Shown piece after piece: positions 4,129 through 42,567 of a stretch of DNA of 64,000 bases; the stretch's first letter is position 1; every line of letters begins with the position of its first letter. Origin of the DNA: Planctomycetaceae bacterium (lineage in GTDB: Bacteria; Planctomycetota; Planctomycetia; Pirellulales; Pirellulaceae). The notes beneath the pieces are model-generated. The model searched no databases, was not told the origin of the DNA, and saw only the letters and a list, made by a program, of their open reading frames with translations. Made by a program: the position numbers and the translations under genes. The DNA lies in NCBI GenBank assembly GCA_021298315.1, contig JAJTFC010000003.1:1-64000 (forward strand). Direction: 5' to 3'.

Positions 4129-4989
4129 CCGCAGAGGTTGGGACGAAATTTCAACGCGGGTGATTCGGCTTTCAGTTGGTTCTAGCCGCAGGCTTGCTCG
4201 TCGCACATTCGATGTCTCGATGCAACACATCTGACGGTATTCCTCATCTCCGAAATCGGACATATTTCTGGACTTCTCAATCCACGGATTCCAGACCACC
4301 GTCGAGTCCGATCCTTCGGATTCGATTCGTAAAAACCTTCCTAAAAAACGGTCCTCGATCGCCGTCGAAGGCGCCTTTCCATAATAAATCCTGTCGGTCT
4401 CTTGGCTAAATCGTATCGGTCTCTGGGCAGGAGAATAATCGAGTTTGGTCAATTGATCGTAATGTCCGCAGCGCTCTAGATCCCCTGTAACGGAGACTTG
4501 ATCAATATCCCCAATTCGAAAATAGCTATGCAATGCGACTTCATACTCTCTGGCCACTTGCGCGTTATTCCGAACCTCTAGCGACACCGATAGCATTGGG
4601 CCCATAACGATCCGATAAACCAGTTCAAAATCGTCCTTCGATAATCCAAGCTCAACATGAATTCCCCCATCACTCGATTGCGTCTTGAGCACTTGCCACT
4701 GGGATGTCCTTGCCCAACCATGCGCAGGGAGACTCGAATCGCTCGGATGGCTATTGAACCAAGGAAAACAAATAGGGATTCCACCCCGTAACGCTTTGCC
4801 TTGCTGATAGATTGCCTGACTACTCATGAACAAGATGTCTTGGTAATGGGTCACATGGGCACCTTGAAGAAAAAACTCTCCGGTGCAGGCATTGGTTTGT
4901 ATTTTGCCATAGACCAAGCCACTTGGATGCTCTCCGAACACCAAGTCATTGCCTATTCCATAGCGAGCATTCAATGCATCGATATCCAT
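4114..4989 (-). CDS. aldose 1-epimerase / D-hexose-6-phosphate mutarotase (YeaD-like)
   Basis: A 291-residue galactose-mutarotase-fold protein. Visible are GGIPICFPWFNSH (the GG-PxxxPWF motif of YeaD-type mutarotases), HGWARTSQW, ALHSYFRIGDI with the catalytic-type His, and a C-terminal VVWNPW. The family interconverts alpha and beta anomers of sugars or sugar 6-phosphates in the cytoplasm. An upstream extension of 84 codons in frame exists, but ATG at 4989 is chosen because GAGGGGG lies 7-8 nt before it and homology begins there. The start is 13 nt after the stop of the LarA-like gene; it ends the hpt-glycosyltransferase run. Confidence 0.85.
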   Translation of the reverse strand: MDIDALNARYGIGNDLVFGEHPSGLVYGKIQTNACTGEFFLQGAHVTHYQDILFMSSQAIYQQGKALRGGIPICFPWFNSHPSDSSLPAHGWARTSQWQVLKTQSSDGGIHVELGLSKDDFELVYRIVMGPMLSVSLEVRNNAQVAREYEVALHSYFRIGDIDQVSVTGDLERCGHYDQLTKLDYSPAQRPIRFSQETDRIYYGKAPSTAIEDRFLGRFLRIESEGSDSTVVWNPWIEKSRNMSDFGDEEYRQMCCIETSNVRRASLRLEPTESRITRVEISSQPLRRNVS

Positions 4990-5002
4990 GAAGTCACCCC
5001 CT

Positions 5003-6184
5003 CTAGTATTCCAAAACACCGACCCGCACTGCTGATTGCATGAGTCGCTCGAGTTCATTTGGATTGCGGATCGAGGCAAACCCAAGCGATTCAAGTACCT
5101 CAGAGTCCACCTGAGATTGTACATAAACGCTGCGCCTCGACTGGATTCCTCGCAACACCGCTGCGGCAAAAGCATCCTCAAGAGTGCTATTAAGTAGCAT
5201 TTGCTGGAGATCCTCATCGGGCTCGTCGGATGCCAAAGCACCGACTCCCGAAGAAACCTCTTGGAGTTTGTTTGCCACGACGACGATCCTACCAGCAGGG
5301 GTCAGCCATCGCTCGGCGCCATGGGCTGCACTTGCGACTTGGCTCCAGCTTGGAATCTGCGACTCGTCAACCAATTGGACAACCACCAAATCGAAAGCTT
5401 GGTCGCCGCAATTGTTCTGGCGGACGCTCGAACCGATGGATTGCTGACAAGCTCGGTCGACACCTTCGGGAGTTCCGGAGAACAAACAAGCAATTTGCCC
5501 TTCTTGGTTTGCCAATGCTCCAATGACGAACTGGATTCCGGCCAACCAGCCCGAATCTTTAACGCCCTCTTTGGAAGCCTTGGAACTCGATCGCCCAGAA
5601 CGATTGCCGATCCAAGCTTTCGCTCGCCTATGGATCGTGGCTCGATCTGCAAATGCGGGCAAGACGACAAAAGGGTCATGTCCTCGGGGATCCTCGGGCT
5701 CAAGCCACCGATAAACAGGGATCACAAAATCGGCTTCTACCAATTCGCGCTGCAGATAGATCGCTTCGCCTTGCTCCGAAGCAGCAATGTATTCGAGACC
5801 CTGGCGTTCGTCAGGATCGTGGCATACCACTCGGCAAACAGGCTCCTGGTTTTGATCGCCAAGTGGATGGTTGTTGGCAAGCCAACTCTCGATGGACGAC
5901 TTCAGAGTTTCCTGTCCATGCGCAAGAACCACGACGAGGTGTACATCGACGAGAACTTCATGCTTCAAGAGCCAATCGATGATCGACTCGACTAGAGGAC
6001 CTGCCTGTATCAGGCTTTCATGGACCGCGATAGCGACTCGATCACCTGGAACCAATGCGCGCCCTATGGGTGGAAAATCAAGCGGGTTTTCCATCGCATG
6101 TGCAACGGCTTGGGGGATCTCGACCAAGCCGCTTGCGACCGCACTGCGGAGTTGAACGAAATCGAATGCAGAGGTTTTTTTCAT
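5003..6184 (-). CDS. LarA-like (DUF2088 / nickel-dependent lactate racemase superfamily) protein, divergent
   Basis: 393 residues. The N-terminal half (PGDRVAIAVHESL, then IIDWLLKHEV and VHLVVVLAHGQET) resembles the LarA N-domain, and the rest the C-domain with GWLAGIQFVIGA and a Rossmann-like QAFDLVVVQLVDE. LarA isomerises lactate or other 2-hydroxyacids using a nickel-pincer cofactor. The usual GTHRP segment is replaced here by AHGQET, so substrate and even catalysis are uncertain. Its ATG overlaps the TGA of the preceding glycosyltransferase by 4 nt, and the mutarotase follows 13 nt on, suggesting a sugar or sugar-acid role. The family call is moderate. Confidence 0.6.
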   Translation of the reverse strand: MKKTSAFDFVQLRSAVASGLVEIPQAVAHAMENPLDFPPIGRALVPGDRVAIAVHESLIQAGPLVESIIDWLLKHEVLVDVHLVVVLAHGQETLKSSIESWLANNHPLGDQNQEPVCRVVCHDPDERQGLEYIAASEQGEAIYLQRELVEADFVIPVYRWLEPEDPRGHDPFVVLPAFADRATIHRRAKAWIGNRSGRSSSKASKEGVKDSGWLAGIQFVIGALANQEGQIACLFSGTPEGVDRACQQSIGSSVRQNNCGDQAFDLVVVQLVDESQIPSWSQVASAAHGAERWLTPAGRIVVVANKLQEVSSGVGALASDEPDEDLQQMLLNSTLEDAFAAAVLRGIQSRRSVYVQSQVDSEVLESLGFASIRNPNELERLMQSAVRVGVLEY

Positions 6185-7302
6185 CGTTGCAAGAGCTGGC
6201 GGTACCAGGCTTCGTGGCGTTGGATCATCGTCGATGCGGAATGCTCGCGGGCAACATGCTCGCGAGCCGATTCAATGAGTCGAACTCGCCACTGCGAATC
6301 ATCGAGCAGTTGGTTCGAGATCCGCATGAGTCGGTCTACATCACCCACAGGGAAAAGGATACCGGTTTTTTCGTTTTCGATAAGATCGCGGTTACCTGGG
6401 ATATCGGTGGCCAAGACCGGCACCCCCGCTTGCATGGCCTCAAGGATCACGTTGGATTGACCTTCGTAGAGACTTCCATTCCAAAGCAGATCTGCATGGG
6501 GCAGGATCTGCATCGCATCGGGCCGATGTCCAATCAAATACACCGAGGCGGCCGCACGGACATTATCGCGGTAGGCCTCAAGCCGCTGTCGCTCCGGCCC
6601 TTCTCCCAAAATCACATAAGAAACCTCGCTCCGGAGAATCCTCAGCATCTCCGCAGCCCAAATCAAATCCTTGTAGCCTTTTTGATGCCAAAGCCGCCCG
6701 ATCGAGAGAATCAGCCGATGGTTAAGCGGGATGCCCAGACGTTCAAACGCCTCCTGCCGCGAGATCTCAAGTTTCGGATCTCGCGATTCGATGCCGTTTG
6801 GAATAATCTTAAAGTTCGAACGGTCGATCCCTTGCTTGTGATAAAAATCGACCACCCCCGGACTGTTCGTCGAGATCCCTTGCGTCCGTTTGGCCAAGTA
6901 TCGATCGATCGTCAATTGCCAGGATCCTTTCCAAGGGTCGACAGACCTTTCTGACCCGACGATGCATGGCACTTTGGCCCACAGAGCCGCATAGCGGCCA
7001 TACGCGTTGGCAGCAAAAATCCATGTATGGACGATGTCCGGTTTGATTTGTCGTAAAGTTCGCAGCAGCTTAACCCAAGCCAAAGGATCTGCTGTCGTGT
7101 GTTTACCGATCACATGAACGGGAATGCTTGCTGCACGGAGCTGCGATTCCAAAGGACCGGTTCTGGTAAGAACGACAACCGAAGGCTCAAAGACGTTGCG
7201 ATCCAACCCGCAAGCAAGCATCACAAGCTGTTTCTCTGCTCCTCCCTGATCGAGCGTCGGGATGATCAAGCAGACTTTGATTCGATTCGATATCTGGGTC
7301 AC
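6181..7302 (-). CDS. glycosyltransferase family 4 (GT-B fold)
   Basis: 373 residues, cytoplasmic. The N-terminal motif VCLIIPTLDQGGAEKQL is the classic GT4 acceptor-domain opening; the C-terminal donor domain shows SIGRLWHQKGYKDLIWA, and LLWNGSLYEGQSNVILEAMQAGVPVLATD carries the E-x7-E signature. It transfers a sugar from a nucleotide donor to a glycan or lipid acceptor; neither can be named. The start is GTG, and GTGA overlaps the TGA of the upstream glycosyltransferase, showing translational coupling; its own stop overlaps the LarA-like start. Confidence 0.9.
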   Translation of the reverse strand: MTQISNRIKVCLIIPTLDQGGAEKQLVMLACGLDRNVFEPSVVVLTRTGPLESQLRAASIPVHVIGKHTTADPLAWVKLLRTLRQIKPDIVHTWIFAANAYGRYAALWAKVPCIVGSERSVDPWKGSWQLTIDRYLAKRTQGISTNSPGVVDFYHKQGIDRSNFKIIPNGIESRDPKLEISRQEAFERLGIPLNHRLILSIGRLWHQKGYKDLIWAAEMLRILRSEVSYVILGEGPERQRLEAYRDNVRAAASVYLIGHRPDAMQILPHADLLWNGSLYEGQSNVILEAMQAGVPVLATDIPGNRDLIENEKTGILFPVGDVDRLMRISNQLLDDSQWRVRLIESAREHVAREHSASTMIQRHEAWYRQLLQR

Positions 7303-8540
7303 TTGAAGCTCTTCCCCGAAGTCCCATGCTGATTTTTCAAAATTGCCTCAGAGAAGAGACTTCGCCAGCGATCAAGCCAGTGCTGGTTCGGATGGTGTTG
7401 CTGGTAATGCCTGCGAAGTGCGATGGCTTCCGCCTCCCATTGCGAGCGATGCATGAGCCAATCGGCAAGCTGCGCTGCGAGTGTGTCTTTCGAGTGGTAC
7501 CATTTCATCAGCGGAGTCTCGGGCATCCATTCGCCGATCGATGGCTCCTGTGCCACAATCATTGGGACTTGGGACTCCAGAACCAACCGACTGGAGTATT
7601 GAAGCGAGCAAGCAGGATTCGATGCGATCACCAGATCTGCAATGCAAATCAAATCCTCCAAGACATCGAAACCGTCAAAGATCAGGATTTCACGATGCCA
7701 TCCTTGGTGCCGTAGCCACTGATAGATTTTGGGTGTATCCGATCCGGGATTGATCAGCCACATGCGTAAAAGAACGCCTCGATCGAGCAGTCCGCAAACC
7801 GTCTGAAGAACACCTTCCAACTGCTCTATAGAAGCTTGGCCAAAATGCACCAGCAAATGGGTTTGAGCAGGTATGGCTAAGTCGCCCGAGACATCGAACA
7901 AGGCTCGTGCGGCCATCTTGCGCTCGATTTCCGTTCTGCGGGCCGGTTCAAAAACGGCATCTGGAATCCAAACACTTTGTTCTTTGCTAACACCAAGATC
8001 CAGCAGAGCCTCATAACCTCGGCGATGATCGGCGATCACCGCATGGCACTTACGAAGCGAATCGCGAATCGACACCGAAGAGGGTAAATAGGCTCCGAGG
8101 GATTTGGGTATGGCAAGGCTCAGTGGATCTTGGCTAAAGCGACTCAAAACCGGTCTGCCAATCAATGAGGCTTTCGATACGATAGCCGAGAGCAGATGGT
8201 CAGCCGCATCGACATAGATCGCGTCAAAGTTGTCGGCGTTTTTGATCAACCACTTCGTCACGTTTCTCTGAAAGTGGCTCTCATTCCAAGAAGAACTCGG
8301 CGGTGGTAGCAATCTTTCGACAGCCACCTTTCGCAGGCGGGCTCGGTCGGTCCAACTGGCATTCCATCGGGTCGTCAGTACCGAAGGTTCGACCCCGATC
8401 GACTGCCAAGCATCGAGTGTATGCATGAGCCTCTGGCTCGATTCGTCGGCAAGTGGCCAATAGTTGCGTGCGACGACTTGGATCCTCATCGAGGTTTCTA
8501 CGGCGCGATTCATGGGAGTTTGTGATTCGGCGATTGCCAT
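7299..8540 (-). CDS. glycosyltransferase-like protein (GT-B, group 1 type)
   Basis: 413 residues. The opening IQVVARNYWPLADESSQRL is typical of GT4-like proteins, but the C-terminal donor domain is divergent (LIVHFGQASIEQLEG, then DLICIADLVIASNP and RLVLESQVPMIVAQEPSIG). The sugar donor is not identifiable. ATG at 8540 lies 4 nt after the hpt stop; an alternative ATG at 8489 removes 17 residues and would start right at the conserved strand. It is coupled to the following glycosyltransferase by a 4-nt overlap, so the two probably act on the same glycan. Confidence 0.75.
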   Translation of the reverse strand: MAIAESQTPMNRAVETSMRIQVVARNYWPLADESSQRLMHTLDAWQSIGVEPSVLTTRWNASWTDRARLRKVAVERLLPPPSSSWNESHFQRNVTKWLIKNADNFDAIYVDAADHLLSAIVSKASLIGRPVLSRFSQDPLSLAIPKSLGAYLPSSVSIRDSLRKCHAVIADHRRGYEALLDLGVSKEQSVWIPDAVFEPARRTEIERKMAARALFDVSGDLAIPAQTHLLVHFGQASIEQLEGVLQTVCGLLDRGVLLRMWLINPGSDTPKIYQWLRHQGWHREILIFDGFDVLEDLICIADLVIASNPACSLQYSSRLVLESQVPMIVAQEPSIGEWMPETPLMKWYHSKDTLAAQLADWLMHRSQWEAEAIALRRHYQQHHPNQHWLDRWRSLFSEAILKNQHGTSGKSFK

Positions 8541-11002: not shown

Positions 11003-11986
11003 TTATCTTCGATTGAATTGCTCGATGGCTTGAGCAAAGATATCGCCGTAAACCATTTCGCCACCTTGATGCCCAACGATTCCGACCAAAGCCGCCAGGA
11101 TTAAGACTCCCGTTTTCCAACCCCAGCCGGGTCGAGTTCCATCGGTCTTTCCGCAGCGGTGTGCCATCCAAGCAACGACGAGGCTTGCCACAGCCGTGAG
11201 TGTGCCTAGCCAACGGTGAAAGAACTCGTTGGTTTGTTGCTCGCCACTGCTGGAAGTGATCATTTCGGTCCAGCCTGAGAGCCCTCGAATTTCCGCAAAG
11301 GACCAACCCATCAGCGCCGCAGCAACGCTACCGATTGCCCCCAGGACAAGGCATGCATAAGCAAAACGTACGCAGCTTTGACCGAACATCCATGAACAGA
11401 TGATCGCTAAACCGGCCAGCGAAAGCAAAGCGACCGGAAAGTGTACCACGGCTGGATGGAGGTAACCGACTGCAAGGTATAGGCGCCTAGGAGTCGATGC
11501 GTTGGCCCCTAAGGCCTCCTTCGAAGGTCCATCCGAATGCGGATCAAGCTTGTCGGACTCAGGCCAACTAGCTCCCTCTTGTATCCAGAGTTTGAGCAAC
11601 GCAAGCTTGGCTTTGGGCAAAGGCCCATCGGGCGGCATGACCAAACTCTCGGGATCCTCCAAGATCGGTTTAGCCGTTAAGTAATCGGTCCACAGAGAGC
11701 TCTCGTCGATCGAACCTGGGGTGATATATCCCAAGAGAGCTTGCCGAACGGAGATATCAAAACCTCCTTTAGGTTGCGCGCCGCTATGGCACTGCAAACA
11801 ATGCTCGCGCAGGATCGGAGCAATGTCTTTGGAAAAGTCGACCCAAGCGATTGCCTGCGGAAGCTCAGGTGTGTCTTTTGCAGCGGGCTCTTCTTGCGCA
11901 ATAGCCCAATGGGTACCCAGCAAGACAACGACTAGCCGCACAAGTAAGCAACTAGGAAAGCAATTTCTGAAACTCAGGTGGAGCAT
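11003..11986 (-). CDS. planctomycete cytochrome C domain (PSCyt1) fused to DUF2231 membrane domain
   Basis: 327 residues. After a signal-type segment comes one heme c site, CLQCH near residue 62, in the PSCyt1 setting (ILREHCLQCHSGAQPKGGFD and ESLVMPPDGPLPKAKLALLKLWIQEG). The C-terminal half has about four membrane helices with LHPAVVHFPVALL, a His in HRWLG, and GHQGGEMVYG, typical of DUF2231 and likely heme-related. A role in extracytoplasmic electron transfer is plausible but not shown. About 110 nt separate it from the RbsD-like gene downstream. Confidence 0.85.
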   Translation of the reverse strand: MLHLSFRNCFPSCLLVRLVVVLLGTHWAIAQEEPAAKDTPELPQAIAWVDFSKDIAPILREHCLQCHSGAQPKGGFDISVRQALLGYITPGSIDESSLWTDYLTAKPILEDPESLVMPPDGPLPKAKLALLKLWIQEGASWPESDKLDPHSDGPSKEALGANASTPRRLYLAVGYLHPAVVHFPVALLSLAGLAIICSWMFGQSCVRFAYACLVLGAIGSVAAALMGWSFAEIRGLSGWTEMITSSSGEQQTNEFFHRWLGTLTAVASLVVAWMAHRCGKTDGTRPGWGWKTGVLILAALVGIVGHQGGEMVYGDIFAQAIEQFNRR

Positions 11987-12039
11987 AGAAAAAAAGATCT
12001 ACGAGTTGGTTCGTTGCAATAAGTCAGCAAGCTACTTGC

Positions 12040-12897
12040 CTATTGGCTTTCGCGCCTTTGCGAGAACATCCAGTCGTAGAGTTCGGGGTTGGAGTAAGTT
12101 TGAGTCCAACTGTCATGCTGGGCTTCGGGGTACTCGGTGTACTTGATCGGCGAGCCAATCTTCTTGAGCGCTTCGACCATCTCGTGGCTCCGAGAGACCT
12201 TCACCACTGGATCCTTAGCTCCATGAAAGCACCAGATCGGCAATGACTTGAACCGCTCGACAGTCTTTGGGTCTCCGCCGCCACAGATCGGTGCGGCTGC
12301 GGCAAAGAAACCTGGATAACGCGCGATGGCATCCCAAGTCCCATAGCCACCCATCGAAAGACCGGTAATGTAGATTCGGGTTTTATCCACTCCGGCATTC
12401 TCTACCATCTCGTCGAGTAGCTCCTTGATGCTCTGCATCGAGTCGCTTGGGTCTTGCGGAAGTTCGCTAGAGTCTTTCGACCAATCGACCTCGGACCACT
12501 TTTTTCCGGTCGGACACTGAGGGATCAAAACATAGGCGGGATACTTGGCTCGCAAGGCATCTGCTGCAAAATCCTTTGCGGCATGCTTGAGCGTGACCGC
12601 ATTGTCTTCTCCTCGTTCGCCTGCACCGTGAAGAAAAAGCACCAGCGGGTATTTTTTTCCGAACTTGTAGTCGACCGGTTTGATCAACCGGTACTTGAGC
12701 GGCTTGCCGCTCTTACCCACAAATTCACGTGGCTCGTAAAACTTACTCAGATCCTTTGGAGCGGTTGACGCTGCGTCTTGACCAAATACCAACTGCAGAT
12801 TGCTAGCAATGCTGAAACAGGCCAATGCAAGCAGTAGAATGCGGTTAGGGCACGAGGCGAATGATGGTTTTGGTGACGGATGCTGATGGAGAGTCAT
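12040..12897 (-). CDS. secreted alpha/beta-hydrolase esterase (PHB depolymerase / prolyl oligopeptidase-like)
   Basis: 285 residues with a signal peptide (hydrophobic core ILLLALACFSIASNLQLVFG, then cleavage near GQDA). The catalytic serine is in GLSMGGYGTWD, the oxyanion-type motif in LFLHGAGERGED, the acid probably in HGAKDPVV, and the histidine in EAQHDSW. Such proteins in planctomycetes hydrolyse esters, often feruloyl or acetyl esters on polysaccharides; the substrate is unknown. A longer form from 12978 would place 45 residues before the signal core, so ATG at 12897 is preferred. It is divergent from mutL. Confidence 0.85.
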   Translation of the reverse strand: MTLHQHPSPKPSFASCPNRILLLALACFSIASNLQLVFGQDAASTAPKDLSKFYEPREFVGKSGKPLKYRLIKPVDYKFGKKYPLVLFLHGAGERGEDNAVTLKHAAKDFAADALRAKYPAYVLIPQCPTGKKWSEVDWSKDSSELPQDPSDSMQSIKELLDEMVENAGVDKTRIYITGLSMGGYGTWDAIARYPGFFAAAAPICGGGDPKTVERFKSLPIWCFHGAKDPVVKVSRSHEMVEALKKIGSPIKYTEYPEAQHDSWTQTYSNPELYDWMFSQRRESQ

Positions 12898-13026
12898 TTC
12901 AGTTTTGCAGTGGTTGGTGGAAATCCAGTTTGGCGCGAGTTTGACATGCTTCATTGAAGTTGGATCGCAAGGCCTCATTGTATCCCAAATCCCAACAGGA
13001 TGCGAACTTGGCCGGGCCCTTTTGGG

Positions 13027-13054
13027 TTGCTGGTCTAGCCCGAAGGCTTATACT
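13027..13054 (+). promoter_or_regulatory. weak sigma70-type promoter candidate for mutL
   Basis: TTGCTG (13027-13032), a 16-nt spacer and TATACT (13049-13054, 5/6 match). Transcription would begin near 13061, leaving a leader of about 80 nt. The -35 match is poor, and the mutL Shine-Dalgarno AAGGAG is about 14 nt from its ATG. Confidence 0.33.
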
Positions 13055-13140
13055 TTCACTGAAACCGATCTGCCTTCATTGATTCACTTGTTTCTCTTGA
13101 GTCAAAGTGACGCACTTTCCAAGGAGTTTTTGCCGCTCGG

Positions 13141-15060
13141 ATGCCAATCATACGACAACTGCCGGTAAGTCTGGTCAATAAAATCGCTGCGGGTGAAGTC
13201 ATCGAGCGGCCTGCGAGTGTCGTTAAAGAGATGCTTGAAAATAGCGTTGATGCAGGTGCGACTTTGATCGAGGTCTTGGTCGAAGGGGGCGGAACGGATC
13301 TGATTCGAATCAGCGATAACGGATGCGGAATCGAGCCTGAGCAACTCGAACTTGCGCTTGCTCCTCATGCGACGAGCAAACTCAAGGACTCGGAAGATCT
13401 TTTCGATGTTCGCACATTGGGTTTTCGCGGTGAGGCTCTTGCATCGATTGCTGAGATCAGCCACATGACGCTTCGCAGTCGCGTCGCTTCGAGCGACAGC
13501 GGATATGAGTTGCGAGCCCAAGGATCCGAGCGTGAGCCGATTAAGCCTTGCGCCATGGACATCGGCACGACGATCGAGGTTCGGCATCTGTTCTTTAATA
13601 CACCGGTGCGTCGCAAATTCATGAAGACTCCATCGACAGAGATGGGGCATGTGGTCGAGGCCTTTACACGAGTCGCATTGGCATTCCCTCATGTGCACAT
13701 GATTTTGTGTAGCAACGATCGTGTGCAATACGACTTGCCACAAACCAGCAGATGGGCCGATCGGATACGAGCATTTTTTGGCGACGAAGTAGCCGACTCG
13801 CTTATATCTGTCGAGCACCAGGACGAGAAGGTCAAGGTGCGAGGCTATGTGGCCGATCCGAGTCTATCCCGCAGCAATAACCGGATGCAGTATCTGTTCC
13901 TCAACGGACGCTACATCCGCGATCGAGCTTTGCAACATGCATTGTCTGAGGCTTATCGAGGCCTGCTGATGGTAGGCCGCATGCCCGTGTGCTTTTTGCA
14001 AATGGATATAGATCCAAAGACGGTCGATGTGAACGTCCATCCGACGAAGGTCGAAGTTCGTTTTGAAGACAGCGGTGCGATTTACAGTCGACTATTGCAT
14101 ACGATCCGGCACCGATTCCTGACCTCAAACCTTGTGGCTAAAGCCCGAGACGTTGGGATCGATCCGCAAGCAGCACAGCTACCAGCACCAACGATAGGAC
14201 CTGCCAACTCACCTTCGATAGCCGCTGCTGGATCGAATACGGCTTTGATGGACTGGGCACGATCGCAACAAAGCGTGCCTGATTTTCGTCCTTTCCCAAG
14301 CTCTGGATTTTCAAACGATCCGTTCAGAAGCGAGCCCATCATCGCATCCCCTGCTTCGATGGCTCCAACGGCCTGGACAAACCCTGCGAGCCCAACCCAA
14401 GCCCCAGTTACACCAAACGCCGATCCACTTTTAGAGGCAATCGATTTTTCGACCAAACGCAGTAGCGACCAAGATCTCATGGGATCTTCCCGAGCGGTCG
14501 GATTCCAGATCCACAATCGATACCTGATCACCCAAGACGAGGCAGGGATGGTCATCATCGATCAGCATGCCTTGCACGAACGAATTCTCTTCGAGCAAAT
14601 TAAGACGAAGGTTCTCTCGAAGTCCCTGGATCGTCAGCGGATGCTCGTACCGGCTACTGTGCAGTTGACCTCTGCAGAGGCGGCCATGGCAATTGATTCT
14701 AAAGAGATGCTCGCCGAAATCGGATTCGAGGTCGAATCGTTTGGAGGCGATACGATTGTCCTGAATGCCTATCCATCCATTTTGTCCATGCGATCTCCAG
14801 AGGAGATGCTCAAGCAGGTTCTCGAAGCTCTGATGTCTGGGGGCAAAAAGGTTAATGCGCAAGACGTGCTCGACGAACTGATGAACATGATGGCCTGCAA
14901 GGCAGCGATCAAGGCCGGAGATCGCTTGAGCGATCCAGAAATTACGGCGTTACTCGAACAGCGGCATTTGTACCACGATACTCACCATTGTCCGCATGGT
15001 CGCCCAACCGCATTGTTCTTCTCCCGCGAACAACTCGATAAGATGTTCAAGAGGATTTGA
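13141..15060 (+). CDS. mutL: DNA mismatch repair protein MutL (endonuclease-type)
   Basis: 639 residues. The GHKL ATPase domain is intact: IAAGEVIERPASVVKE, ENSVDAGAT, DNGCGIEP, TLGFRGEALASI. A Pro/Ala/Ser-rich linker covers about 350-440. The C-terminal dimerisation domain carries the metal-site motifs of nicking MutL: DQHALHERILFE from Asp474, MACKAA and CPHGRPT, so this MutL is probably itself an endonuclease, as in bacteria without MutH. It faces the exported EEP hydrolase with 3 nt between stop codons. MutS is not in the window. Confidence 0.96.
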   Translation: MPIIRQLPVSLVNKIAAGEVIERPASVVKEMLENSVDAGATLIEVLVEGGGTDLIRISDNGCGIEPEQLELALAPHATSKLKDSEDLFDVRTLGFRGEALASIAEISHMTLRSRVASSDSGYELRAQGSEREPIKPCAMDIGTTIEVRHLFFNTPVRRKFMKTPSTEMGHVVEAFTRVALAFPHVHMILCSNDRVQYDLPQTSRWADRIRAFFGDEVADSLISVEHQDEKVKVRGYVADPSLSRSNNRMQYLFLNGRYIRDRALQHALSEAYRGLLMVGRMPVCFLQMDIDPKTVDVNVHPTKVEVRFEDSGAIYSRLLHTIRHRFLTSNLVAKARDVGIDPQAAQLPAPTIGPANSPSIAAAGSNTALMDWARSQQSVPDFRPFPSSGFSNDPFRSEPIIASPASMAPTAWTNPASPTQAPVTPNADPLLEAIDFSTKRSSDQDLMGSSRAVGFQIHNRYLITQDEAGMVIIDQHALHERILFEQIKTKVLSKSLDRQRMLVPATVQLTSAEAAMAIDSKEMLAEIGFEVESFGGDTIVLNAYPSILSMRSPEEMLKQVLEALMSGGKKVNAQDVLDELMNMMACKAAIKAGDRLSDPEITALLEQRHLYHDTHHCPHGRPTALFFSREQLDKMFKRI

Positions 15061-37885: not shown

Positions 37886-39658
37886 TTACAGCGAGGTCAA
37901 ATACTCGGCGCTTTGGAGCAAGGGGTCTTCGTAGTAAAGCTTGATCGTCCCATCTCGCTTAAGCGTTTCTACCTTCTGAAGCTCCGCCGAGTAGATCTCC
38001 TCGGCAATCGCATCAAGACGCTTGGCCCTCTGAAACCAACCCATCACTAGCATCGCAATGATCAGTACCGGCAGAGTTGATATCCCAAAGGCCGTGAGCA
38101 TCATCGTGGCTTTGGGACTCGGGAACTCAGAAAGGTCTTTCGTCCCTTGGCTCCAAGCATGCATGGTTGCTAGGAAATACTGCCGATAAATAGCGATGAT
38201 CGGTCCGGCCATCAATGCCCAAAAGACCACCGAAGCCACCAATCCCAGCAACTGCAACAACCAACGCCCAATTCGATATTTGCTAAGCGTCTCGTCGAAC
38301 ACTCCGCGAGCATGAACCTGAAGCGCATCGATACCGCTGATGCGAATCCTCAGACCCGAGTCGATCCGGTGCCCTTCGCGATTCGTTCCGCCAATACGAT
38401 CGATCGCCCGATAAAACTCCTGCTGCGCCGGCAATAGTCGATCTTGAATCTGCTTGGTCAAATACTCCTTGATCCCCTCTTGCAACTCCTGATGGGCCTG
38501 ACGCGAAGCGCTCAGGTTTTTTGCCCAAGTTAAAAACGTACCGAAGATCGATGGCAAGCTACCGGTCATCGATAGGATCAATCGATCCCAAGCTCCATGG
38601 GTGAATCCCAAGACACCCAGAAGGGTTCGGTAAGGAAACCAAAAAAGGCCAGTGCCTGATATCAACTCCCCTCGAATGCGATCGCGAATCGCATTGCGAA
38701 GAACATGCTTCGACCCGAGCACCATCTCGATGGCTTGGCTGGGCAATGCATCGGCAGTCGATGCAAGCTGGGTGATGGCCAGTGCGAGCTGCGGAACCTG
38801 GCTGTGAATTGCCTCCGAAACCTTGGAACTGAGCCGATCGCTAGCAGTCCTGAGCCTGAGCGACTTGGTCGCCGATGCTACCTTGAGATCCTCGTGAGCA
38901 AGCCTCGAGGTAAGATCGCTTTGCAACTTGCCCGCGATACCCTGTTCGTCACCCATGGCTTCAAAGTCTCCCACGAGGATCGGTTCCAAGAAACGGGTTC
39001 CTGGGGCACTGGTGCTCAAGGCCGCTGTGTACCACTCGATATCTCGTTGCAAGTTGCCCGCAAGACTTCCGGCGCCTTTGATTTCAGATTGAGGAACACA
39101 CGTAATGATCGGCAAACAAACCGAGCCTTCGGTCAACGCGGCCAGTTGAACATGGATCGCACTACGCAATTGATCTCGGCGAGCAACGAGCAGTTTGATC
39201 GGGGCCAAGCTCATGGCTTCCTTGGCTATCGCCGCAGCACTTGGATCCTCGTCGGTGTATCCTGGTGTATCCAGAACCATGTAAGGGCGATTAAAGTCGA
39301 GCATGCTTTTGGCCGGGCATGCCAAGTAGACTTCACGTGCCGTATCCAAGGCATCCGGGGATGTCGGACCAATCCAATGCAACTTGGTCGTCGCCTCTTT
39401 AGCCAACACACCGCTGGGCAAGAATTGAGAGATGGCCGGATCGAGTACCAACTGCCTTGCGACCCACGTCTTGCCCTGCCCTTTGGCCCCAATGATTCCA
39501 AAACAAGGTAGCGAGACGCCTCGATCGTGCATGATATCGTTGGCAGCTTGGCGAAACTCTTCACACCATCGCGTGATCTGCGATCGAACCGGGTGAGAAC
39601 CCAGAAGTTGCTGCGATGCGACCTCGATTCGCTCAACCATCTGCAAATGATCTTCCAT
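37886..39658 (-). CDS. membrane-associated P-loop GTPase B (dynamin-like superfamily)
   Basis: 590 residues. A P-loop IIGAKGQGKTW lies at about 54-64, a G3 motif VLDTPGYTDED near 130, and strand-5-like IITCVPQ near 183; no clear NKxD is visible. Two strong membrane helices follow near the C-terminus (LLQLLGLVASVVFWALMAG and FGISTLPVLIIAMLVMGW), preceded by an amphipathic stretch around 340-390. The protein starts 2 nt after GTPase A ends, so the two are certainly co-expressed. Function is unknown; paired bacterial dynamin-like proteins remodel or repair membranes. Confidence 0.65.
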   Translation of the reverse strand: MEDHLQMVERIEVASQQLLGSHPVRSQITRWCEEFRQAANDIMHDRGVSLPCFGIIGAKGQGKTWVARQLVLDPAISQFLPSGVLAKEATTKLHWIGPTSPDALDTAREVYLACPAKSMLDFNRPYMVLDTPGYTDEDPSAAAIAKEAMSLAPIKLLVARRDQLRSAIHVQLAALTEGSVCLPIITCVPQSEIKGAGSLAGNLQRDIEWYTAALSTSAPGTRFLEPILVGDFEAMGDEQGIAGKLQSDLTSRLAHEDLKVASATKSLRLRTASDRLSSKVSEAIHSQVPQLALAITQLASTADALPSQAIEMVLGSKHVLRNAIRDRIRGELISGTGLFWFPYRTLLGVLGFTHGAWDRLILSMTGSLPSIFGTFLTWAKNLSASRQAHQELQEGIKEYLTKQIQDRLLPAQQEFYRAIDRIGGTNREGHRIDSGLRIRISGIDALQVHARGVFDETLSKYRIGRWLLQLLGLVASVVFWALMAGPIIAIYRQYFLATMHAWSQGTKDLSEFPSPKATMMLTAFGISTLPVLIIAMLVMGWFQRAKRLDAIAEEIYSAELQKVETLKRDGTIKLYYEDPLLQSAEYLTSL

Positions 39659-39660
39659 GG

Positions 39661-42042
39661 CTATTGATTATCCCCTTGATTGACTTGCTGGTTGCTTTGC
39701 GTGTCGGTTTGGTGCAAGCGATCCAGCGATCTTTCTAAAGAATCCCATATTGGCACCTGCGTCTGGCGCTGGGCAGAAGGGACTCCATGCACACATCGAA
39801 AACTCTGCATGTTAGCTGCTATGGAACTTGGGGCAAGCTTCCGAGGAATTGCACCGAGCATGACTTGTGTTGGATCTTCGAGAGCTTTGCGCTGCAACCC
39901 TAGTTCATCGGTCAGCACTGCGACCAAATCCGATAGCTGTTGCCAAGCCGATTCGCTTTCGGCCATTTGGGGCATCCCATCGCCACTTGCGAGCATCAAC
40001 CCAAATCCAGCGGCACCTGCAAAGAGCAATTCCTTGAGCGATGCAAAGACCAGGACCGATGAACCGCCGAAGTCCAACGGGATCATGATCACGGCCAAAA
40101 GGGGTGCGAACAGGATCCCCGCAGGTGCCACTCCGCTTAGGATTCGCTTGCCCATAGGCATCTGTTCCCAAAGCCGTTTGGTCAATTCATCGACTTGCTG
40201 TGGATCCAACTGCGTGGAACTCTCTGCTTGAAAACGCTCGATAGCTCTTTGGCATGCATCACGGATCTTTTGGCGATCATCCCCTGGCCGATCAAGATCG
40301 AGGATCCCTTCGCGGTCACGGCGAGCCAAAGCATCCAAAAGTACATCGGCGGTGACTACTTTACCGCTTTCACCTCGCTGCAATCGGGATCGAGCCCACT
40401 GGCCCACCGCGTTGCCTCGATCGAGCATCCACGAGGGCATCTTCATCCATGAAGTTGCATATCCAACGGAATCCTTGCTTGCCTGTGCGAGTTTTTGCAT
40501 CCAGCGGCCAGGTTTGGCCCACCAGGGTGCGGTCCGTTCAAGAGACTGTGCGATCTGCTGAACGACTTGCCTGGATACCTGCAATCGAATCTTTGGATTC
40601 GATGCATTGGAGGACGGATCGAGCGAAAAGTCCAAGCAAGCTTGAGCTATCACATGATGCACCATAGACAATCTGCGATTGCTCTCAGCAATCCATGCGC
40701 GAGCCGCCTGAAGGCCTCGGCTCAAGGAGATCTTGAGTGTCGTCAAACTCGATTCGATCGCATCGGCCAAAAGAGCGTTTCCTTGAATCTGCTCTCCTAG
40801 GCGCAGCATCCATGCAGAATCATCGATAGGCTCGGGCGGCTGGGGAATCGGCGAGCGATCGATCCGATAGAAAGAAGGCAACAGAGTATCCTTGCGATCT
40901 TGCAGTACTTTGGGCAAACACCGAAGTTTCTCACGCCGCTCGGGGCCTTCGAAATGATACGCCATATAAATACGACTCGGTGTCGAGAAGCCATACAAAG
41001 TGCTCATCTCCTGAGCGATCTGTGTCGAGTCGTATTTTCGCGGAACACGATTTACCGCGAGAATCCTTTGCACATGCGGCATTTTCGATTCAAGCATCTT
41101 GAGCAAGCGACTGACCGTCTGATCGTGCATGGCGTTGGCAGGTAGCACGACGATGTACGCACTGCAGATAGTCGAAGAGCGTTCGAGCACTGAGAACCGA
41201 GCCTCTGCGGCGGCCATCGACAGTTCGTCTAGACGCGTCAGTCGCTGGCTTGTCGAGGCGTTTTGCGCAACGGACATCAAACCGGTCTGCACATCCGGGC
41301 AATCCATAAGTGCCACACCGAGTCGATCAAGCTGTGGGTCGGTCGCAACCAAGGGAATCTCCAAGGAGCTTCGCCGAAGCGACTTGCCATCGGCGTCGAC
41401 CAAATCTCGCATGGAAAGATCATTGTATTGCATCGCGGCCTGCTGTGGATCGCTCGATAGTTCCTCAGGCACAGAGCCAAAGACTTGAGTCAAACGGTTC
41501 GAAATAAACTCCCAAATGATCGAGTTGCTCTTCCAGGATTCTGGTAACCATAGCACGAAGCGATGCGTCCCTTCGGTGTTCGCAGAACCGATCAAGACCC
41601 GACGCACATCGGCATGTTTCGGTTGCGAAAGAAACGTCGCGACCAACGAACTCTTCCCTGCATTGAGCATCCCTAAAACCGCAACGATCGGACAAACAGG
41701 GGACTCGATCATCGTTCGGGCTAGGGAAATCCCTTGGGCGATCGACGTGGCAAGCGAGTTTTCAGGAGAAACTCCAGTAACCTCATCGCGTTGGAGCAAA
41801 AGGGATCTCAAACTCGATCCATCACTCATAGCCTGGACGAGAAAATCCGATTCAATTTTGGCAAGTTGGTCGCGTAGGCTTTGGGACACAGTGGTTATTT
41901 GCAAAGTCGATTTAGCGGTTTGTAGAGCTTGAGCGTTGACATCCTCGTGCCGATGACCATAGTACTCCGAGGATTCGAAGGGAGTTTGAATGGAGTTCGT
42001 CGGACACCATTTTTTCTTAGGAGCAAAAGTTTGTCGAAGCAT
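39661..42042 (-). CDS. membrane-associated P-loop GTPase A (dynamin-like superfamily)
   Basis: 793 residues. P-loop GMLNAGKSS at 124-132, G3-type MDCPDVQTG near 250, and a VNRVPRKYD segment near 335 where NKxD is expected. A membrane-inserting hairpin ILFAPLLAVIMIPLDFGGSS and onward lies at about 675-715. The first ~45 residues look unlike the family, and other in-frame starts (TTG, GTG) exist around codons 47-52; ATG at 42042 has no ribosome site and overlaps the divergent anchored-protein gene by 12 nt, so the true start may be further in. Partner of GTPase B (2-nt gap). Confidence 0.7.
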   Translation of the reverse strand: MLRQTFAPKKKWCPTNSIQTPFESSEYYGHRHEDVNAQALQTAKSTLQITTVSQSLRDQLAKIESDFLVQAMSDGSSLRSLLLQRDEVTGVSPENSLATSIAQGISLARTMIESPVCPIVAVLGMLNAGKSSLVATFLSQPKHADVRRVLIGSANTEGTHRFVLWLPESWKSNSIIWEFISNRLTQVFGSVPEELSSDPQQAAMQYNDLSMRDLVDADGKSLRRSSLEIPLVATDPQLDRLGVALMDCPDVQTGLMSVAQNASTSQRLTRLDELSMAAAEARFSVLERSSTICSAYIVVLPANAMHDQTVSRLLKMLESKMPHVQRILAVNRVPRKYDSTQIAQEMSTLYGFSTPSRIYMAYHFEGPERREKLRCLPKVLQDRKDTLLPSFYRIDRSPIPQPPEPIDDSAWMLRLGEQIQGNALLADAIESSLTTLKISLSRGLQAARAWIAESNRRLSMVHHVIAQACLDFSLDPSSNASNPKIRLQVSRQVVQQIAQSLERTAPWWAKPGRWMQKLAQASKDSVGYATSWMKMPSWMLDRGNAVGQWARSRLQRGESGKVVTADVLLDALARRDREGILDLDRPGDDRQKIRDACQRAIERFQAESSTQLDPQQVDELTKRLWEQMPMGKRILSGVAPAGILFAPLLAVIMIPLDFGGSSVLVFASLKELLFAGAAGFGLMLASGDGMPQMAESESAWQQLSDLVAVLTDELGLQRKALEDPTQVMLGAIPRKLAPSSIAANMQSFRCVHGVPSAQRQTQVPIWDSLERSLDRLHQTDTQSNQQVNQGDNQ

Positions 42043-42567
42043 CCGGGGATTCGTCTGAGTCGATTCACACTGACGCTCCTGATTCTTGGGGCAATCCTGA
42101 TTCCCGTCGGATCGGGCTTGGGCTTGTTTTTCCTTTTCAAACCCATTCCCGAACCGCGACTTACGGCACGCGTGCGACTCGATGGGATGTGGGTTGAAGA
42201 CAAAAAAAATCCAGGGCAGAAAAAACTCGTACCCGCCATCAGCATATGGAATCCTACGTCGGAATCCTGGGGACAGTTAACCGTCGGGCTCAATAAATCG
42301 GGCCGTAACAACCAATTTTACGCATCCGAGCCCTTTGGCATACCGGCCGGAAAAACCGTTTCGATTCCTCTATTTGCTTTCGTCGCTAGAAACGGTAGCG
42401 TCACGTTCCCCTCGGGAAATCGCAATGTCCGCGAAGTGACTATTTTTGCCAAGCTACCTAGCAATGCTCGGGGAGTGGCCGAGTTCATTCTGCCGGAGAT
42501 ACCCACAGTACCAAAATCCGATGAGGATCCGGATTCTTTGTGGATCGAACCACTAGCGGGAAACTAA
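42031..42567 (+). CDS. small membrane-anchored protein, function unknown
   Basis: 178 residues. Start TTG at 42031 is chosen because AGGAG lies 7 nt before it. A short basic N-terminus is followed by one membrane helix (FTLTLLILGAILIPVGSGLGLFFLF); the rest is a predicted beta-rich extracytoplasmic domain (LTARVRLDGMWVEDKK, LVPAISIWNPTSESW, TVSIPLFAFVARNGSVTFPSG). No family is recognised. It is divergent from the GTPase pair and overlaps the 3' end of the CorC-like gene by 15 nt. Confidence 0.65.
   Translation: MSKHPGIRLSRFTLTLLILGAILIPVGSGLGLFFLFKPIPEPRLTARVRLDGMWVEDKKNPGQKKLVPAISIWNPTSESWGQLTVGLNKSGRNNQFYASEPFGIPAGKTVSIPLFAFVARNGSVTFPSGNRNVREVTIFAKLPSNARGVAEFILPEIPTVPKSDEDPDSLWIEPLAGN

Follow-up and report, generated by a model that had tools for sequence, protein, structure and literature searches.

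A conserved pair of putative dynamin-like membrane proteins in Pirellulaceae and its kinase and ExbB neighbors in several genera

Gene layout of the locus

We analyzed a stretch of 64,000 nucleotides from a Planctomycetaceae bacterium (Pirellulaceae; GenBank assembly GCA_021298315.1, contig JAJTFC010000003.1, positions 1 to 64,000 of the forward strand), hereafter referred to as the window. The analysis focused on two adjacent genes, here named A and B, that encode P-loop proteins with predicted membrane helices, and on gene C, which starts on the opposite strand. A preliminary description made from the sequence alone had presented A and B as a tandem pair of dynamin-like membrane GTPases opposite a small anchored protein. 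The features of the locus, in which A and B are labeled by their predicted folds, are as follows (BDLP, bacterial dynamin-like protein; aa, amino acids; ORF, open reading frame).

39661..41889, minus strand: gene A, predicted mitofusin/BDLP-like dynamin, 742 aa with the preferred GTG start (the ORF reaches 42042, giving 793 aa)
37886..39658, minus strand: gene B, predicted P-loop GTPase-fold membrane protein, 590 aa, probable dynamin-like partner
41647..41673, minus strand: P-loop of A, GMLNAGKSS, residues 73-81 of the 742-aa form
40000..40131, minus strand: hydrophobic hairpin of A, residues 587-630 of the 742-aa form
39467..39490, minus strand: P-loop of B, GAKGQGKT, residues 57-64
38042..38245, minus strand: two C-terminal membrane helices of B, residues 472-539
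42031..42567, plus strand: gene C, one N-terminal membrane helix and an outer domain, 178 aa from a TTG start; kept as a neighbor of A in this genus only
41890..42030, no strand: probable intergenic region separating the divergently oriented genes A and C, from start-site comparison

The 793-aa (39661-42042) and 590-aa (37886-39658) ORFs, with 2 nt between the stop of A and the start of B, were reproduced with the coordinates and spacing first described. Both of the differing P-loops were present, and each protein contained two hydrophobic stretches near its C-terminus, as expected from the separate membrane hairpins that had been proposed; the family-averaged peaks fell at residues 587-605 and 612-630 of the 742-aa form of A and at residues 472-490 and 521-539 of B. 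The start of A required revision. The GTG at 41889 had a counterpart in all six close sequences compared (the window, L002-L005, and L013); it is the earliest possible start of A in L002, and a single TTG precedes it in L004. The ATG at 42042 had no counterpart in L002 or L004. Thus, A probably comprises 742 aa rather than 793 aa, in which case A and C would start about 140 nt apart in opposite directions, and the 12-nt overlap of these genes in the preliminary description is probably a start-codon artefact. The remoter relatives L007-L012 have other start candidates for A.

Distribution of A and B

We surveyed 241 genomes of the same family, covering 68 genera. A and B were each found in 114 genomes and in 17 genera. 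Either gene was present in 117 genomes and both in 111 of these, counted without correction for shared ancestry. Such co-conservation is the kind looked for in paired bacterial dynamin-like proteins (DLPs). The six exceptions had A alone (G101, G179, and G213) or B alone (G008, G090, and G187); five of them are at most 86% complete, and G090 is 94% complete. Linkage was counted from 117 A rows and 121 B rows, with some secondary match pieces left out. The pair mostly forms a two-gene operon: in 82 genomes, the two genes share a strand, with A upstream of B at a distance of less than 1 kb, and five more genomes (G011, G026, G154, G160, and G216) had adjacent genes with apparent gaps of 1.1-1.4 kb, where match pieces were left out or partial. 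Both genes were also kept in 24 genomes of eight genera in which they were unlinked in the assembly (19 on different contigs and 5 about 10 kb or more apart). The separation was confirmed in wider context for G013, G074, G096, G105, G143, G147, and G168, and some of the different-contig cases may be assembly breaks. These data strongly support the view that A and B are nearly always kept or lost together as a pair, even when unlinked, in agreement with the coupling originally described.

The pair was present in most genomes of the larger genera that hold it: 25 of the 27 genomes of the window genus (g1), 14/15 in g5, 13/13 in g50, 13/14 in g60, and 19/22 in g53. In a phylum sample of 392 genomes from 267 genera, A and B were each found in the same three genomes, namely the genome of the window, one other family member, and G578, the sole match outside the family, in which the two genes are adjacent. 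Two copies of the pair were seen only in G026, whose locus L069 carries B-A twice (4307-8154 and 11162-15009) with 3847 of 3848 bases identical over both genes; this near-identical tandem duplication may be recent or an assembly artefact.

Predicted structures of A and B

A structure model of A was built from 13 related sequences. Its confidence was modest (predicted local distance difference test [pLDDT] 66, predicted template modeling score [pTM] 0.61) and very low at residues 457-511 and 577-643; the tip and the part containing the hydrophobic hairpin were poorly modeled. The top Foldseek rows for this model were Fzo1, the Campylobacter DLP pair, and mitofusins, and EHD was also among the best structural matches. 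Comparison with VIA gave Z-scores of 16.0 for mitofusin 1 (329 residues, 5.2 Å) and 15.8 for Fzo1; an EHD protein scored 13.3, whereas plain GTPases reached about 9. The alignments with mitofusin 1 and Fzo1 spanned residue 1 to residues 735-737, running from the N-terminal helices through the head to the C-terminal helix, and the model contained a dynamin-type GTPase-domain fold with a helical neck/trunk. The dynamin-like fold first suggested for A was thus recovered in the model comparison, and the assignment of A as a divergent mitofusin/BDLP-type dynamin is well supported at the level of the predicted structure. Searches of ncbifam and single-protein searches of the PDB gave no match, profile searches of the PDB returned only short P-loop matches, weak designed helical repeats, and other chance-level rows, and PADLOC gave a weak match of A to LeoA (E 0.045).

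Besides its P-loop, B has a DTPG motif, a moderately hydrophobic stretch in the middle of the protein, and a conserved pair of membrane helices at its C-terminus. The Pfam family MMR_HSR1 was matched at E<=0.01 by 18 of 34 B members (best 2.1e-5), and the window copy had no Pfam match at that level; by this family match, B is of GTPase type. The model of B had a pLDDT of 64 and a pTM of 0.44 and showed long helices behind the head. Its top Foldseek rows consisted of MMAA-type GTPases mixed with LeoA, Mgm1, Drp1, CmDnm1, and Cj-DLP2; the matches to LeoA, Mgm1, and Drp1, obtained with this low-confidence model, lay near E 1e-3, and dynamins aligned over much of the length of B with high root mean square deviation (rmsd). 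On this evidence, B is a membrane P-loop protein with a predicted GTPase fold, and the dynamin-like fold previously proposed for it is plausible from the sequence family and the prominence of dynamins in Foldseek, tempered by the low model confidence and a mixed VIA list.

Sensor kinase and ExbB beside A and B in other genera

The most interesting part of the system lies outside the region first described, in the partners that accompany A and B in other genera. In several of these, the operon order is sensor kinase-A-B-ExbB. The gene upstream of A encodes a long Ser/Thr kinase (Pkinase, E 8.9e-51 in L075), whose membrane helices, judged by eye, flank an outer sensor part, and the gene downstream of B encodes ExbB (PF01618, E 1.1e-27 in L075). 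Neighboring genes were clustered for 52 loci; ExbB linkage was counted from 68 rows, each from a different genome among the 117 that carry A or B, and kinase linkage from 37 chosen rows, and the counts are lower bounds. The kinase gene lay directly upstream of A in at least 32 genomes of seven genera and the ExbB gene directly downstream of B in at least 45 genomes of seven genera, as well as at the g50 locus L078, with the same order and strand each time. B and ExbB overlap by 4 nt at six loci. Where A and B have been split, the kinase stays with A (G142-144, G147, and G166-168) and ExbB stays with B (G142-144, G147, G222, G224, and G225); the reverse pairing did not occur after a split among the matches listed. 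The 'kinase' of L066 was not counted as a linked kinase, having been clustered through its generic kinase domain only. At L075, L077, L078, and L095, from four genera, the genes after ExbB, judged by eye, encode a small protein that looks secreted and a multiheme-cytochrome/TPR protein.

The origin of the B-linked ExbB was addressed through ExbB genes located elsewhere. Eight genomes with an ExbB away from B were viewed, four of which contain A and B; two ExbD genes directly follow this ExbB in six (L111-L116) and one ExbD gene in two g51 genomes (L117 and L118). At 14 loci with a B-linked ExbB, a narrow motif search found no ExbD. An ExbD-ExbD pair with no ExbB nearby was found in all four genomes checked (G108, G209, G170, and G147; L122-L125 in this order); these orphan pairs are homologous to the standard pair, and the same TPR protein lies behind two of the four. 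In the ExbB tree, the B-linked and ExbD-linked ExbBs were placed apart from 8 of 10 paralogs (support 72/93), and the B-linked ExbBs were placed beside those of g51 (87/97). Two MotA-like paralogs attached inside the B-linked group on a branch of length 10, which we took as an artefact; the B-linked set needs two changes on this tree, in which many branches are unresolved and the bootstrap values had not converged. These sequence data are most simply explained by a move of ExbB into the A-B operon, perhaps a single one; in the four genomes with orphan ExbD pairs, ExbB seems to have been transferred to a position beside B at another place in the genome. Such a relocation is unusual and suggests a working link between ExbB and the pair.

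The arrangement of the kinase beside A and ExbB beside B would suggest a regulated membrane-remodeling machine, and the tie of the pair to both genes is suggestive. A serious competitor, to which we give somewhat less than even odds, is that both links are accidents of gene order and that A and B alone matter. Neither kinase nor ExbB adjoins A or B in eight genera (g1, g5, g7, g27, g31, g35, g43, and g51) among the matches listed, and in the g1 genome L090, other genes occupy the 2.8 kb that separate B from an ExbB. Moreover, relatives of ExbB occur in 231 and relatives of the kinase in 157 of the 241 genomes, and many of the ExbB relatives are in genomes that lack the pair; both genes were accordingly rejected as markers unique to pair-bearing genomes. 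Points against coincidence of this kind are the constant order and strand across seven genera for each link, the retention of each partner by its own half after a split, the 4-nt overlaps of B and ExbB, and the ExbD pairs left without a nearby ExbB.

Functional interpretation of the A-B pair

Our best reading is that A and B represent a real, conserved, and divergent pair consisting of one clear and one probable dynamin, which would form a new family of heterotypic bacterial dynamin pair. In functional terms, A and B would be two different subunits of one bacterial dynamin-like machine of the BDLP/mitofusin type at the cytoplasmic membrane, with a probability of about 0.6. Each subunit would combine a head for nucleotide binding with helical segments and a membrane hairpin at the C-terminus. 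If they act like other paired bacterial dynamins, the heads of A and B may dimerize when nucleotide binds, and the dimer may tether, stabilize, or remodel the inner membrane and its invaginations. A-B binding, membrane remodeling, and the use of GTP are predictions of this reading. Planctomycetes show unusual folding of the inner membrane and lack the usual FtsZ ring at division, and few proteins are known to shape their membranes. The A-B pair, being conserved, dynamin-like, and flanked by a kinase and ExbB in several genera, is a concrete candidate for such a role.

Several observations weigh against this reading. In A, the G1 Lys and the Thr of GTHRF were invariant in all 36 relatives, and the G3 motif was DCPD instead of DxxG in 35 of them; the G4 motif of A is mostly N[KR]V, lacking the guanine-reading Asp of NKxD, and the G4 motif of B is likewise non-canonical and lacks NKxD. 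The P-loops first reported stand, and the label 'GTPase' attached to both proteins is therefore provisional. The Pfam family Dynamin_N scored below its curated cut-off for A (16.7 vs. 27 bits) and reached E<=0.01 in only 1 of 36 A relatives; for B, it was not listed for the window copy and reached this level in 3 of 34 relatives. Because Dynamin_N also scored elsewhere in the same genome (C194, 34 positions) and in 12 of 14 control genomes, a match to it alone is not specific, and the fold evidence for A is stronger than this sequence test. Further points are the modest confidence of both models (pLDDT 66 and 64), the lead of flavodoxin folds in the VIA list for B, over head residues 49-258, the disregard of shared ancestry in the co-occurrence counts, and the weak match between the A and B profiles (hhalign probability 14%, E 0.0019), which lends weak support to a common origin of the two genes. 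Finally, the single g7 genome G026 has lost the P-loop from B and kept it in A.

This last observation bears on a second reading, in which A is a mitofusin-like dynamin and B, rather than being a dynamin, serves as a regulatory G protein or nucleotide switch, anchored in the membrane, that controls A or joins it to ExbB. It would also fit the general GTPase family MMR_HSR1 as the best sequence match of B, the mixed structural match lists from a low-confidence model, and the preference of ExbB for B over A. We consider it unlikely, since B has long helices after the head in its model, a moderately hydrophobic middle, and a C-terminal membrane hairpin, and since dynamins align along much of its length, albeit with high rmsd.

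If A and B are subunits of one dynamin-like machine, the kinase next to A may place it under the control of an outside signal, and the ExbB next to B may link it to a proton-motive-force complex; this extension to both partners is the most speculative part of the reading. The full version of this proposal is a signal-gated machine in which the transmembrane Ser/Thr kinase responds to an outside cue by acting on A, and ExbB, relocated from an ExbB-ExbD-ExbD operon, couples B to energy transduction across the planctomycete envelope; we regard it as decidedly doubtful. Such a connection between a dynamin operon and an Exb-type energy system would, if true, be novel to our knowledge: title searches of mostly open-access literature found no paper joining a dynamin with TolQ or ExbB and no title on such a dynamin pair in planctomycetes, Pirellula, or Rhodopirellula. 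An anti-phage role, as raised in the preliminary description, or a stress-related membrane-surveillance role is very improbable: some bacterial dynamins do act in phage response or stress, and A weakly matches LeoA, but PADLOC gave no meaningful match for the pair (best E 0.022), the neighbors in the window look like housekeeping genes by eye, and the near-universal rather than patchy occurrence of the pair in larger genera (g1, g5, g50, and g60) argues for a cell-biological role rather than defense.

Comparison with known systems

The closest structural parallels of A are mitofusin 1 and Fzo1, with which its model aligns from the N-terminal helices through the head to the C-terminal helix, with a hydrophobic hairpin before the last, and presumably Nostoc BDLP1. 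In contrast to these proteins, A has the DCPD G3 motif and no G4 Asp, and two segments of its model (residues 457-511 and 577-643) are of very low confidence. ExbB-ExbD-TonB systems resemble the A-B operons in that the gene downstream of B (in seven genera and at L078) is an ExbB that groups with ExbD-adjacent ExbBs (72/93); they differ in that no ExbD motif was found at the 14 B-linked loci and that ExbD pairs stand elsewhere without ExbB in four of four genomes.

Most bacterial DLPs occur as operon pairs (PMC6104087). Campylobacter Cj-DLP1/Cj-DLP2 (PDB IDs: 5owv and 5oxf), which are among the best matches of A, are likewise encoded by two different dynamin-like genes adjacent in one operon (PMC6104087). 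They differ in that identity in the match is only 10-12%, that relatives of A-B have a kinase and ExbB in the operon, and that A-B is known here from sequences and models. Streptomyces DynA/DynB, mycobacterial IniA, and Escherichia coli LeoA are similar in being bacterial dynamins thought, in part according to PMC6104087, to need a partner. Unlike A-B, they belong to other taxa with other gene neighbors, and they gave no meaningful sequence-family match (LeoA, E 0.045).

Gene C and flanking genes

Gene C was described as a third protein with one membrane helix, and its product is indeed a conserved protein with one N-terminal hydrophobic helix; its overlap with A is the doubtful part, given the later GTG start favored for A. 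The C profile was found in 137 of the 241 genomes, from 25 genera. The three-gene layout was not conserved in this survey: C adjoins A (adjacency judged by eye) only in the window genus, in 25 of the 26 g1 genomes with C, the two being on different contigs in G106. Within this genus, C remains beside A even where B sits elsewhere (L012, L089, and L091). Outside g1, it lies away from A and also occurs in genomes that lack both A and B. We therefore rejected C as a functional third member, as it is beside A only in g1 and common elsewhere apart from it. C, taken at 41929-42567 of the window, belongs to a broad family of proteins with a single helix and an outer domain that is also found in genera without A and B.

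The other genes flanking the pair in the window look like housekeeping genes by eye. At four loci of genera g5, g27, and g31 (L066, L068, L071, and L072), a gene that we take to encode an Obg-type GTPase lies upstream of A on the same strand, accompanied at three of the four by what is presumably a pantothenate-kinase-like gene.

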